NCBI RefSeq assembly: GCF_025377685.1
Contig: NZ_JACEHK010000010.1
Location: 62,001-126,000, forward strand
Reading direction: 5' to 3'
DNA from: Anaerobacillus sp. CMMVII
GTDB lineage: Bacteria; Bacillota; Bacilli; Bacillales; Anaerobacillaceae
Length of the DNA stretch: 64,000 nucleotides
In this document: positions 15,297 to 19,387 of the stretch, piece after piece
Numbering within the stretch: position 1 is the first letter of the stretch
Layout: each line of letters begins with the position of its first letter
Position numbers and translations under genes: made by a program
Notes under the pieces: model-generated
Database searches by the model: none
The model's input: only the letters and a program-made list of their open reading frames with translations
What the model was told of the DNA's origin: nothing

Positions 15297-18200
15297 GTGG
15301 CGATGACAATGTCAAAAGTGATGAAGATTAATGTGGAAAGGTTGAATGAGGACATAAAGCTTTTTCCACAAGTTCATGAAATCACACCAGACATGAAAAT
15401 TCAAAAAAAGGGTGTATCTCGTCTAGTTATGTTAGACCGTTATACTTTTAAGGATACTGAGAAAAAGACTCTAAAAGAAGGCGATTTTGTTGTCTTAACA
15501 GTAAAACAAGATCCGAAATTCCCGGCACGCGGCTATGGCTATATACAAAATATTGACTGGGGAAAAAATGAAGTAAAAATCTATGTTGATGAAGAATTTC
15601 AAGGAGTTCTAGAAAATCCAGAGGAAATGAGTACAGGCATTGTTACGAGATCTTTAGATGCTATCGAAAAGCCTTTAGAAATCTATTATGAACAAATCGC
15701 GAAACGTAATGCCACTGGCTTAGCTTCTGTTGAAACATCAGAAGAACGAAGACAAAAATCCTTTAATGACTTCTATGAAGAATTAGCAAATTTAAATTTT
15801 ATTCCTGCAGGCCGTGTTCTTTATGGAGCTGGATCTGATACTGATGTGACATACTTTAATTGTTATGTCATGCCTTTTGTCAAAGACTCAAGAGGTGGTA
15901 TCTCAGAACACCGGACACAGGTGATGGAAATTATGAGTCGCGGTGGTGGAGTTGGAACGAACGGCTCAACATTAAGACCGCGTAATACATTAGCAAGAGG
16001 AGTAAATGGTAAATCATCTGGATCGGTTTCTTGGTTAGATGATATTGCAAAATTGACCCATTTAGTTGAGCAAGGTGGATCCCGTTAATAAAAAAGACCA
16101 CACGGCGGGAATAAAATCTCGTGAATTGCTGGAACACCCTTAGAGCCTCTACAACCACAACGTGATTGGTAACAATGAGCGTGAAGGTATAAAAATGTAA
16201 AGGATTGGGCAATCAGCAGCGAAACATCTCGGGAAACTGAGATGGACGTTCAACGACTATTGAAACTTCCTAAACCAAATTTATATTGGGTGCAAAGGAA
16301 GGAGTAAATCATAACAAACGGCAACGTGGTTATGAGGCGCGAGACAAAGCAGAGATAATATAATAAATTTTCTTCTTTGATGATATAGTCTGATCTTACA
16401 TGAGAGTGTAAGAGAGTGGCAGAAATGTCCACTCCCCTCAATATGAGGAGTAACAAAAAGCGTGGCGCACAAATGATTATGCTTTCAGATTGGCACCCTG
16501 ATATTTTAGAGTTCATTATCTCTAAAATGCAAAACCCAAGAATATTACGTTTCCTCTTAGAAAGCAGTAATGATACTCAAATTAAACAACTTGTAAAGGA
16601 AAAATTGAAATTTACCCCTTTAACAGAAGTTGAAAAAGCGATGTACCAAGGAATACTTAACTATCAAACGATCCCAGGTCTAGGCGGCTTTGATGAAAAA
16701 ATAATAAAGGAAGCTGAAGATAAGCTTAAAGTTGGTGGAACGTATAGCGTTAACAATCCAGAATTCTTAACAGGAGCTAACATTTCAATCTGCTTGACGA
16801 AAGAATTTATGGCAGCTGTGGAAAATGACACTGACTACCCACTTCGTTTTCCAGATGTAGAAAATTACTCTAAAGAAGAAATGGACGCGTACAACCGTGA
16901 GTGGCAAAAATACGGAGATGTTCGTGAATGGGAAGCTCTAGGCTTTAAAGTAAGAACCTATCGTACAATAAAGGCACGTGAGTTGTGGAAATTGGTTAAT
17001 ATTTGTGCAACGTATTCAGCAGAACCAGGTATTTTCTTTATTGATAATGCCAATGACATGACAAATGCTGTAGCTTATGGACAAAAGGTCGTTGCGACAA
17101 ACCCGTGTGGGGAACAACCTCTCGCACCATACAGTGTTTGTAACTTAGCAGCTATTAATTTAGGTGCAATGGCTAACAAACAAACAAAAGAAGTAGATTT
17201 TGATAAGCTTAAGCGAACTGTTGAAGTTGGAATTCGCATGCAGGATAATGTTATCGACGCCACACCGTATTTCTTAGATGATAATACAAAAATGGCCAAG
17301 GGAGAAAGACGAATTGGACTAGGTGTGATGGGCTTACATGACTTGTTAATCTATACAGAAACGGTTTATGGATCTGAACAAGGCAATAAGCTGGTTGATC
17401 AAATCTTTGAAACAATTGCAACTACTGCATATCGTACAAGTATCGAACTTGCAAAAGAAAAAGGAAGTTTTCCTTTCTTACTTGGCGAGTCAGAGGCAGA
17501 AACACAATTACTTCGTGAAAAATTCATTAATAGCGGTTATATGAAAAAGATGCCTGAAGATATCCGCGAAGATATCTTACAATATGGAATTAGAAATTCA
17601 CACCTTTTAACTGTTGCTCCTACGGGTAAAGTAATTGCCCCCTACATTTGCAAAAATGTAGCGTAAACTTGGCTATATGCGGGAAACACTGAGCATCCTT
17701 TAATACCTGTGCTGCCAACACGATAAGGTAAAAATTTAAAGGTGCAGTCAATCCGCAGGGAAGTCGTGGCTGACCCCTCAACGACTACACGCCGGGCACC
17801 AGAAGAAATATTAATGTTTCACCTTTGCAATGAGAATGTATGTTCTTATAATAGATGTAGAGGTGATCAAATGGAAAAACGATGTCTCGATTGTGGAAAA
17901 ATGATAAAAGTAAAGCCTAGCCATTATGACCGTAAAAAATATTGTTCTCGTATTTGTAAATCCAATTACCAAAAAAAACACCCACCTTTATCTTGGGAGG
18001 AAATGAGTTTAAAAATAAAAACTAAGTGTTCGAATTGTGGTAAAGCTTTCAGTAAAAAGCGATCCACTATAAAAAAAAATAACTTTTGCTCGATAGAATG
18101 TATGTATGAGCATTTTAGAAAAGAAAAAGGAAACCAACACTTAGTTAAAAAAATTAAACTTACATGTCACTACTGCCAAAATGATTTTTACGTAATTTAC

Positions 18201-19387
18201 TCAAGAAAAGATACTGCAAAATATTGTTCTAAAAATTGCTTAGGCAAAGCTAACGGACAAAGAGCAAAGATAGCGTATCGTAAAAGAACTATTGTCCATT
18301 GTGTAAATTGCATAAAACAAATTGAAAAGAAACCTTCCGTAGTTAGAAAACGAAACTTTTGCTCTGAGAAGTGTATGGGAGAATACTACGCGAAGTCTGG
18401 TATGTTTTCTGGTGAAAATAGTGGGACATGGCAAGGTGGAGATATTGATTATTATGGACCTAATTGGAGAGAACAAAGGAGAATGGCTAGAAGTAGAGAT
18501 CACTTTACTTGTCAAGAATGCGGTAAAACAGAGGATGAATACGGCCAAGAGTTATCAGTTCATCATAAAATTCCTTTTAGAGAGTTTGGTGGTGACTGGA
18601 AAAAGGCAAATCAACTATCTAATTTAATTTCTCTCTGTGAATACCCGTGCCATAGAAATAGACATCGTAATTCTAATTAATATAAAAATTTGGTTGATGA
18701 TATAGTCTGACCCATATGGCGACATATGGAGTGGGTAAAAATCCCACCATCTGAATTTAAGATGTAACAAAAGTGAGTACTGGAACAATGGTTGGTGTTT
18801 CAACAGGCCTTGAGCCTTACTATTCGTTTTCTTACTATCGTAGTGGACGTTTAGGGAAATTTATTGAAGTGAAAGCAGAAATAGTACAAGAATATCTAAA
18901 TCAGCATCCTGATGCAGATCCAAATAATTTGCCTGAGTGGTTTATTTCAACAATGGATCTTTCTCCTGAAGCTCATGCTGATGTACAGTGTATTATTCAA
19001 CGTTGGGTAGACAGCTCATTATCAAAAACGGTAAATGCGCCACGAGGCTATTCAGTTGATCAAGTTCAAGCTGTTTATGAAAGACTTTACCGAGGTGGTG
19101 CAAAAGGCGGTACAGTATATGTCGACGGAAGTCGTGACGCTCAAGTATTGTCCTTAACTGCAGAGGAAAATAATCTAGATACTGATATGGTAGCCACAGA
19201 AAAGCCAAAGCATAAAAAACAGCAAGTGGTGCTCCTAGATACAATTGCAGATCTTCGCTCTACATCAGTAACAATTGGTTCTGAGGTCGGTAATACTTGT
19301 CCAGTTTGCCGTACAGGAACGGTAGAAGATATTGGTGGTTGTAACACTTGTACGAATTGTAATGCACAATTAAAGTGTGGTTTATAA
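15297..19387 (+). CDS. nrdJ: B12-dependent ribonucleotide reductase, two introns
   Basis: Class II (adenosylcobalamin) ribonucleotide reductase, reducing ribonucleotides to deoxyribonucleotides with or without oxygen. The coding sequence lies in three exons: 15297-16085, 16461-17627 and 18776-19387, joining to about 855 residues with no frame change; both splice points fall between codons. Joined protein reads GGSR-RGAQM and APTG-STGTM, as in uninterrupted homologues. Family features: FNCYVM, NPCGEQPLAPYSVCNLAAINLG, MRIGLG-like ERRIGLGVMGLHDLL and the C-terminal zinc/redox tail CPVCRTG ... CNTCTNC. GTG 15297 (or ATG 15303) follows GGAGAG. NrdR boxes precede it; a terminator follows. Confidence 0.92.
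16086..16460 (+). other. group I intron 1 in nrdJ (no ORF)
   Basis: A 375-base intervening sequence that stops the reading frame at once (TAA). Core elements: GGGCAATCAGCAGC (P/Q), TTCAACGACTA at 16250 (R) and GATATAGTC near 16382 (S). The upstream exon ends in U16085, and TCCCGT of the exon pairs with GCGGGA at 16105-16110 to give P1 with the required U-G wobble at the splice site. The intron ends in G16460, after a CTCCCCTC/GAGGAG hairpin. Removal restores SR-RGAQM exactly. An intein is excluded because the frame is closed. Confidence 0.92.
17628..18775 (+). other. group I intron 2 in nrdJ with HNH gene
   Basis: An 1148-base intron after APTG. Core: CAGTCAATCCGCAGGGA at 17746 (P/Q), CTCAACGACTA at 17777 (R), and, beyond the endonuclease gene, GATGATATAGTCTGA at 18696 (S), so the gene sits in a peripheral loop between R and S. 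Exon end GGGT pairs with GCCC at 17637-17640 for P1 with U-G at the cut site. The final base is G18775, and exon 3 resumes with STGTM. Its core resembles intron 1 (shared CAACGACTA and GATGATATAGTCTGA), so the two are probably related. Confidence 0.92.
17871..18680 (+). CDS. intron-encoded HNH homing endonuclease with four Cys clusters
   Basis: About 269 residues from ATG 17871, which has AGGTGAT at the right distance; the frame is open further upstream through the intron core, but those starts lack a ribosome site. The first 175 residues hold four similar Cys modules (C-x2-C, about 15 residues, C-x3-C), for example CLDCGK ... YCSRIC and CVNCIK ... FCSEKC, each with basic residues around, like small zinc fingers. 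Then SGTWQGG and the HNH nuclease: CQECGKTEDEYG ... LSVHHKIPF ... NLISLCEYPCH. It presumably cuts intron-free nrdJ to spread the intron. Partners: intron 2 RNA. Confidence 0.9.
   Translation: MEKRCLDCGKMIKVKPSHYDRKKYCSRICKSNYQKKHPPLSWEEMSLKIKTKCSNCGKAFSKKRSTIKKNNFCSIECMYEHFRKEKGNQHLVKKIKLTCHYCQNDFYVIYSRKDTAKYCSKNCLGKANGQRAKIAYRKRTIVHCVNCIKQIEKKPSVVRKRNFCSEKCMGEYYAKSGMFSGENSGTWQGGDIDYYGPNWREQRRMARSRDHFTCQECGKTEDEYGQELSVHHKIPFREFGGDWKKANQLSNLISLCEYPCHRNRHRNSN

Follow-up and report, generated by a model that had tools for sequence, protein, structure and literature searches.

What are the two inserts that break the reading frame of a ribonucleotide reductase (RNR) gene in Anaerobacillus sp. CMMVII, where did they come from, and can the gene still yield its product? 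The gene, nrdJ, lies in a 64,000-nucleotide stretch of contig NZ_JACEHK010000010.1 (NCBI RefSeq assembly GCF_025377685.1, positions 62,001 to 126,000 of the forward strand), which was analyzed as a whole and is called the window here. Coordinates are window positions, and all nrdJ features lie on the + strand. We are highly confident that the inserts are two homing group I introns that were acquired independently, stand at different stages of the homing cycle and are expected to self-splice from the nrdJ pre-mRNA. G labels denote genomes of the order-level sample, with G000 being the window's genome (Anaerobacillus), and L labels denote fetched loci.

Three in-phase exons encode a class II ribonucleotide reductase

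The gene consists of exon 1 (15291-16085; 265 codons listed from GTG, ending in GGSR), exon 2 (16461-17627, ending in APTG) and exon 3 (18776-19387, beginning with STGTM and including the stop). All three exons were in phase, and when joined they gave an 857-aa NrdJ. This spliced protein matched NCBIfam NF005991 with 1698 bits (cut-off 854) and TIGR02504 NrdJ with 590 bits (cut-off 400), which confirmed the predicted product as a class II (B12-type) RNR. The nearest source-named nrdJ genes were those of Anaerobacillus alkalilacustris (90%) and an Anaerobacillus metagenome-assembled genome (87%), the window genome's own records possibly being excluded from this comparison. An insertion-free relative, for which the initial annotation had suggested a search, was found in G004: its nrdJ shares 93% protein identity over residues 1-857 and is uninterrupted at both intron sites. 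Sequencing error was rejected as the source of the inserts, since the junctions were exact and in phase and the same sites were interrupted in other genomes.

Both inserts have the anatomy of group I introns

Intron 1 (16086-16460; 375 nt) interrupts the coding sequence (CDS) at nt 795 (GGSR|RG), contains no open reading frame (ORF), and was identified from the Rfam model RF00028 and from same-site relatives. Its RF00028 score was 78.4 bits (gathering score 50; E 3.1e-18, whole window). The 5' strand of P1 is TCCCGT in the exon (16080-16085), with U at the splice site; the guide at 16101-16110 holds CACG, a possible P10 partner, followed by GCGGGA, the 3' strand of P1. Across 23 introns of this site 136/138 P1 cells were paired. 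P3 (16117-16121 with 16340-16344, taken from the Rfam alignment) was paired in 80/90 cells, P4 (16127-16132 with 16213-16218) was 100% paired with no double-sided change, and P7 (16255-16259 with 16386-16390) was paired in 114/115 cells, the paired cells being invariant. The Rfam alignment places P1 elsewhere than at the splice site used here. With a U·G pair at the 5' splice site and a terminal G in addition, the insert was confirmed as a predicted group I intron.

Intron 2 (17628-18775; 1148 nt) interrupts the CDS at nt 1962 (APTG|ST). RF00028 recognized it in two partial matches towards both ends, with 44.9 and 31.9 bits (E 1.5e-9 and 1.2e-5; 3-kb search), and 14 same-site relatives were found. 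Five short ones among these (L154, L162, L168, L172 and L176) scored 72.2-89.3 bits, above the gathering score. P1 pairs GGGT in the exon (17624-17627) with GCCC (17637-17640), in 60/60 cells across 15 introns and with hardly any variation. The P2 hairpin (17642-17661) was 98% paired and had six pairs with double-sided change, P3 (17668-17673 with 17791-17796) had compensatory variants across the 15 introns, and P7 (17783-17787 with 18703-18707) was paired and invariant in 75/75 cells. A U·G pair at the 5' splice site and a terminal G were again present, and a group I intron with a conserved core was confirmed at the level of sequence prediction.

The helix alignments took in 23 of the 26 site-795 introns and 15 of the 15 site-1962 introns, and the predicted helices were 87-100% paired in both. 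Double-sided changes per helix numbered 2, 0, 0, 0, 8, 2, 4, 1, 4, 0, 5, 5 and 4 at site 795, and 0, 0, 6, 0, 0, 2, 5, 2, 4, 1, 0, 2, 1 and 3 at site 1962, where P3 was compensated.

The two introns differ in what they encode. Intron 2 has an uninterrupted ORF of 269 aa from ATG (17871-18680), which would sit between the 3' strands of P3 and P7, that is, in the P8 loop. Its predicted product has Cys-rich fingers and a C-terminal HNH-type domain. It matched PHROG HNH families (best 2e-29) and was 60% identical to the same-site ORF of L175; Pfam assigned zf-FCS only, and the ORF of the same-site relative L141 matched Pfam HNH at 2e-8. The ORF thus carries an HNH domain by profile comparison and encodes a candidate homing endonuclease. 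Its phage and plasmid relatives were 26-43% identical among the matches listed and did not indicate its origin, and a search of viral contigs with the HNH ORF pattern returned five matches, none of them a real relative. Intron 1 has a LAGLIDADG trace (21 aa match), so that it may once have held a LAGLIDADG ORF that was lost; the trace supports this and is no proof of it.

These results bear out the initial annotation in its view of a class II nrdJ with two group I introns, on the strength of NF005991, TIGR02504, RF00028 and the helices. Its start (16086) and end (18775) were exact to the base, and the conserved cores, the P1 pairings with U·G and the terminal G stood for both introns. The fit to a group I covariance model, whose lack it had counted as refuting, held for intron 1, and for intron 2 in two parts below the gathering score. 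It had described one intron as free-standing and the other as mobile; the latter agrees with the HNH-type ORF of intron 2, and intron 1 is better termed ORF-less, with its LAGLIDADG trace. Two other kinds of insert were rejected for the window: an intein, as the frames are closed at once by stops (the sole intein seen was in L127), and a group II intron, as both inserts match RF00028.

nrdJ inserts recur at six sites across the order

We searched the NrdJ protein in 397 genomes of the same order (threshold 1e-40, at most two candidate stretches scored per genome) and matched nrdJ in 347. Two or more matches occurred in 123 genomes, namely G000, G002, G006 and 120 others; these 120 together with G201 were re-searched (sets of 60 and 61), which added 115 fetched stretches to those of G000, G002 and G006. 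The single-match genomes (224/347, including G201) were treated as uninterrupted, so the counts are lower bounds. Junctions were placed where the protein match was highest, T before the insert and G at its end earning a slight bonus, and double inserts were separated via the short coding piece between them. Left out were G254, in which the interruption spans record ends; G021 and G062, with pieces on two contigs; G063 and G351, with an intact copy and a divergent second gene; G201, with a divergent gene; and G180 (L151), in which no insert was found.

Inserts were present in at least 116 genomes, 114 of which had them at one or more of six recurrent sites, with 149 inserts in total (main copies only): 26 at nt 795, 6 at 798, 39 at 801, 18 at 825, 45 at 1446 (NPCG|E) and 15 at 1962. 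One insert was found in 84 of the 114 genomes, two in 25 and three in 5. T preceded 149/149 inserts and G ended 147/149, both being favored by the junction bonus, and an in-frame stop lay within 60 nt inside all 149. The initial annotation had considered two introns in a B12-dependent nrdJ, one free-standing and one mobile, unusual, which did not hold with at least 114/347 nrdJ genomes carrying inserts and 30/114 carrying two or three. Of the 114 genomes, the window's was the only one to combine 795 and 1962 without a third of these sites. Nine loci had paired introns around a tiny coding piece of 30 nt (795 and 825, eight loci) or 24 nt (801 and 825, one locus).

A further Rfam scan at E 0.01 covered 16 loci (L115, L117, L154, L160, L162, L167, L168, L172, L176, L186, L189, L191, L205, L211, L217 and L225). 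All 21 inserts at sites 795, 798, 801, 825 and 1962 in these loci gave RF00028 matches, 19 of them above the gathering score. The two site-1446 inserts in the scan (L160 and L167) had no Rfam match at that threshold, and with Rfam alone a site-1446 intron had none at E 1. P7 of the site-1446 family would be GCATA/TATGC in 27/28 aligned introns, the exception being a short divergent insert in L169, as compared with GACTA/TAGTC at the other sites. We assigned this family to group I solely by its P1, its splice ends, the covariation of its helices and the putative P7 form. A 247-nt member that RF00028 did not recognize lies in L104 (about 3184-3430).

Other kinds of insert were found close to site 1446. 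L134 and L172 have large inserts at nt 1452, 6 nt downstream, with ORFs that by eye resemble reverse transcriptases; that of L172 matched RF00029 (group II) and, weakly, a plastid group II model. L127 has an intein (Pfam Intein_splicing and LAGLIDADG_3) at ATNP|CGEQ, ~6 nt upstream of the site. L164 has two further large nrdJ inserts. The genome of L228 (G131) has an intact nrdJ besides an incomplete copy that bears inserts at 1446 and close to 1956; owing to the intact copy, this genome was not counted among the 114.

The ORFs, compared within the intron set, fell into one main family per site. Sites 795 and 798 had LAGLIDADG (Pfam LAGLIDADG_3 at 1.8e-10 for L104), site 801 had a DUF559/Vsr-like family (in L105 DUF559 was above the cut-off and Vsr below) with LAGLIDADG instead in three introns, site 825 had HNH plus one Vsr-like trace, site 1962 had Cys-finger HNH, and the site-1446 ORF had no Pfam match over a cut-off. 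The ORF was full in 6, degraded in 4, a trace in 10 and absent in 6 of the site-795 introns; full in 1 and a trace in 5 at site 798; and full in 7, degraded in 3, a trace in 1 and absent in 4 at site 1962, the ORF of window intron 2 being counted as full. The survey gives good support to the view of Bacillales nrdJ as an order-wide homing arena, with six group I sites, ribozyme lineages and endonuclease families that mostly keep to one site, and about one third of the sampled nrdJ-bearing genomes occupied; that a group II site and an intein site lie within 6 nt of one group I site is equally well supported.

The two introns belong to separate site-linked lineages

Intron trees were built from the aligned cores of 150 introns, the 149 above and the site-1446 intron of L228. 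The nearest neighbor was a same-site intron for 149/150 introns, compared with at most 53 in 1000 label shuffles, and for 148/150 when the outermost 50 nt (5') and 30 nt (3') were masked. In both trees the introns of 1446, 1962 and 825 each formed one clade and 34/39 site-801 introns formed another; the remaining five site-801 introns stood apart, and those of 795 and 798 were intermixed. Intron 1 was nearest to site-795 introns of other genera and intron 2 to other site-1962 introns. The distribution within the genus was patchy. Among its seven genomes, site 795 was occupied in G000 and G002, 801 in G006, 1446 in G002 and G006, and 1962 in G000 only, and nrdJ was uninterrupted in four (G001, G003, G004 and G005).

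We compared these data with vertical inheritance of the introns from a common Bacillales ancestor followed by many losses. Exon and intron identity do correlate at site 795 (Spearman 0.47), at 1962 (0.38) and, with 15 pairs, at 798 (0.84), as descent would predict. However, the correlation was just 0.03, 0.20 and 0.30 at 825, 1446 and 801, the site-1962 intron was absent from all six other genus members, and in some pairs the introns were closer than the flanking exons, intron 2 being 84% identical to its L154 counterpart and the exons of the two genes 71%. On balance we regard vertical inheritance as improbable.

The initial annotation had proposed that one intron arose from the other, that is, by transposition within nrdJ. 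Both introns have the standard core motifs and have in common 17 identical nt at the P7/S core segment. There are also precedents in phage Twort, where similarities between introns were interpreted as common origin (PMC4853749) and the HNH intron of nrdE was taken as a sign of transposition (PMC3653736); statements on published work, here and below, are limited to excerpts of the papers cited by PMC number. Against transposition, the two introns were identical at only 138/284 aligned positions, lay 2.0 apart in tree distance, and each had its nearest neighbors among same-site introns elsewhere, intron 2 being only the 122nd nearest of the 149 other introns to intron 1. The proposal was not borne out and is very improbable; the two introns are best read as separate acquisitions.

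Sequence related to the introns also occurs in phages. A blastn search with intron 1 gave matches in 211 records of named phages. The best, in Staphylococcus phage PT1-4 (82% over 54%), lay between two annotated lysin genes, and that in phage DW2 (81% over 40%) lay within a feature annotated as possibly intron-bearing; over 140-150 aligned nt, intron 1 was 82-83% identical to the introns of both. In the reverse comparison, site-795 introns ranked top for PT1-4 and DW2 (80-87%, best 12 matches each), and one site-798 and three site-801 introns were also among the best 12 for one or other phage. With intron 2, the 5' part matched Lactococcus phages LW81 and P1048 (72-73% over 53%, four records). 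Of nine loci with an nrdJ part in viral contigs, seven covered query residues 1-393 without an intron-sized gap, L235 covered 114-393, and in L237, on a broken contig, the gene gives way to other sequence. In named phages, nrdJ was found at E 1e-60 in six records, each time as a single piece.

No RNR catalytic gene besides nrdJ was found in the genome

The window's genome comprises 4.87 Mb in 21 contigs (completeness 100, contamination 2.15). Its matches to PF02867, the barrel domain, were the three nrdJ exons only, and PF13597, the class III family, had no match in it. As a control, the same RNR family search in 14 genomes was positive in 11 for PF02867 and in 6 for PF13597. A second, distant gene (29-36% identity; class not assigned) was found in 3/6 other genus members (G001, G002 and G006), and the same protein search did not find it in the window's genome. 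By these profile and protein searches, nrdJ was the sole RNR catalytic gene found, and the cell would therefore need both introns spliced for its deoxynucleotide supply. Relative to the intronless G004, dN/dS was 0.026 for exon 1, 0.032 for exon 2 and 0.037 for exon 3 (dS ~1.5, near saturation), so that purifying selection still acts on the coding sequence beyond the in-frame stops. A decaying gene whose inserts have lost splicing and whose work is done by other RNRs, as the in-frame stops close inside each intron might suggest, is scarcely credible given dN/dS of 0.03-0.04 in all exons, the conserved ribozyme structure, and the failure to find a PF13597 gene or a further PF02867 gene in a genome rated 100% complete.

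Group I splicing normally consists of two guanosine-started transesterifications, and the general anatomy and homing cycle of these introns are textbook matter. We propose that both nrdJ introns would self-excise from the pre-mRNA by these two reactions, and that excision would restore the reading frame of the sole RNR catalytic gene detected in the genome. Each intron would have been acquired separately from its own site-linked homing lineage circulating among Bacillales, that of intron 1 having ribozyme sequence in common with Staphylococcus phage introns. Intron 2, with its HNH-type endonuclease ORF uninterrupted, would be at the mobile stage and intron 1 at the ORF-less stage.

Several observations weigh against this account of independently acquired, self-splicing introns. 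Both RF00028 parts of intron 2 scored below the gathering score, and its ORF product did not match Pfam HNH at E 0.05. P4, P7 and most of P1 were invariant and lend no covariation support, and RNAalifold, which cannot draw the P3/P7 pseudoknot, laid two unvaried helices over the P7 strands at site 1962. P10 of intron 1, between CACG and CGTG of the 3' exon (16461-16464), was weak family-wide, with 68/90 cells paired. The LAGLIDADG trace of intron 1 lies mostly where such ORFs overlap the ribozyme, and ribozymes are constrained, which bears on any reading of intron identity as mobility. Intron 1 was 80% identical to the intron of L104 from the same genus (G002) and 78-79% identical to those of other genera; being about equally similar to both, it does not settle the route. 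What is inferred from the sequence is that the introns splice, that the ORF product acts as an endonuclease, and by which route and in which direction the introns homed.

Guanosine-dependent self-splicing on the path to all deoxynucleotides could conceivably serve as a regulatory checkpoint. We consider this rather unlikely; if true, it would apply to species with no RNR catalytic gene found besides nrdJ, such as that of the window. With alleles that are intron-free, mobile, decayed or ORF-less at its six sites, this one chromosomal housekeeping gene offers a natural test series for the homing cycle and for site choice by different endonuclease families. The dependence of a host on ribozymes could also be tested, with one genome having the split gene as its only RNR catalytic gene found.

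Other features of the window and genome

Downstream of nrdJ, the adjacent ORFs at 19528-20001 and 20112-20552 resemble, by eye, one protein split by a frame change. Rfam searches of the window identified an OLE RNA at 41974-42586 (509.7 bits) and a Glycine riboswitch at 8128-8254 (62.7 bits), and the 3-kb search gave a chance-level ctRNA match on the opposite strand of exon 2. Outside the window, in the tmRNA gene of the same genome (L107 979-1592; G000:C17), the RF00023 match ends at the T-loop, and the expected TCCCAC...CTCCACCA end follows only after ~270 nt that contain a GATATAGTC motif. This insert had a weak RF00028 match (31.4 bits, below the cut-off) in one scan and none in another. 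It is probably a third group I intron of the genome; an intron in tmRNA is already known (Williams 2002, as cited in PMC1995217).

Comparison with known systems

Group I introns in protein-coding genes of bacteria are said to have been reported very rarely (PMC4853749). Our literature search, which covered few subscription papers and no supplements, found no description of such introns in the nrdJ of Bacillales. RNRdb curates more than 100 group I introns, whose host genes the excerpts do not name, and nrdJ cases may be among them (PMC2795772). Two nrdJ cases are listed among the split RNR genes of phages, and the one named in the excerpts, phiYS40, has a 12-nt gap (PMC3653736). The introns described here are of a known, ordinary kind; what may surprise the specialist is the order-wide hotspot.

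In the nrdE gene of Staphylococcus phage Twort (Landthaler 2002, via PMC3653736 and PMC4853749), likewise the gene of an RNR large subunit, two group I introns sit close to conserved residues, and one of them carries an HNH endonuclease. The Twort gene differs in being a class I phage gene, whereas nrdJ is a bacterial class II gene with introns of separate lineages. The class I RNR genes of SPbeta, Bacillus and B. anthracis nrdE also host group I introns or inteins (PMC3653736, PMC1995217, PMC6145125), but they are partly phage or prophage genes and the nrdJ studied here is chromosomal. The lysin or tail hydrolase introns of phages PT1-4 and DW2 are alike in a 5' half 80-87% identical to site-795 nrdJ introns (best 12 matches each); they differ in their host genes, and PT1-4 has an annotated HNH gene there. 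The RIR intron of Nostoc punctiforme (Meng 2007, via PMC12702839 and PMC1995217) is, like ours, of group I and lies on a bacterial chromosome in an RNR gene that is probably B12-dependent by our class assignment. In contrast to the Anaerobacillus gene with its two introns, the Nostoc case has one, involves an IS element according to the title of the paper, and belongs to another phylum.

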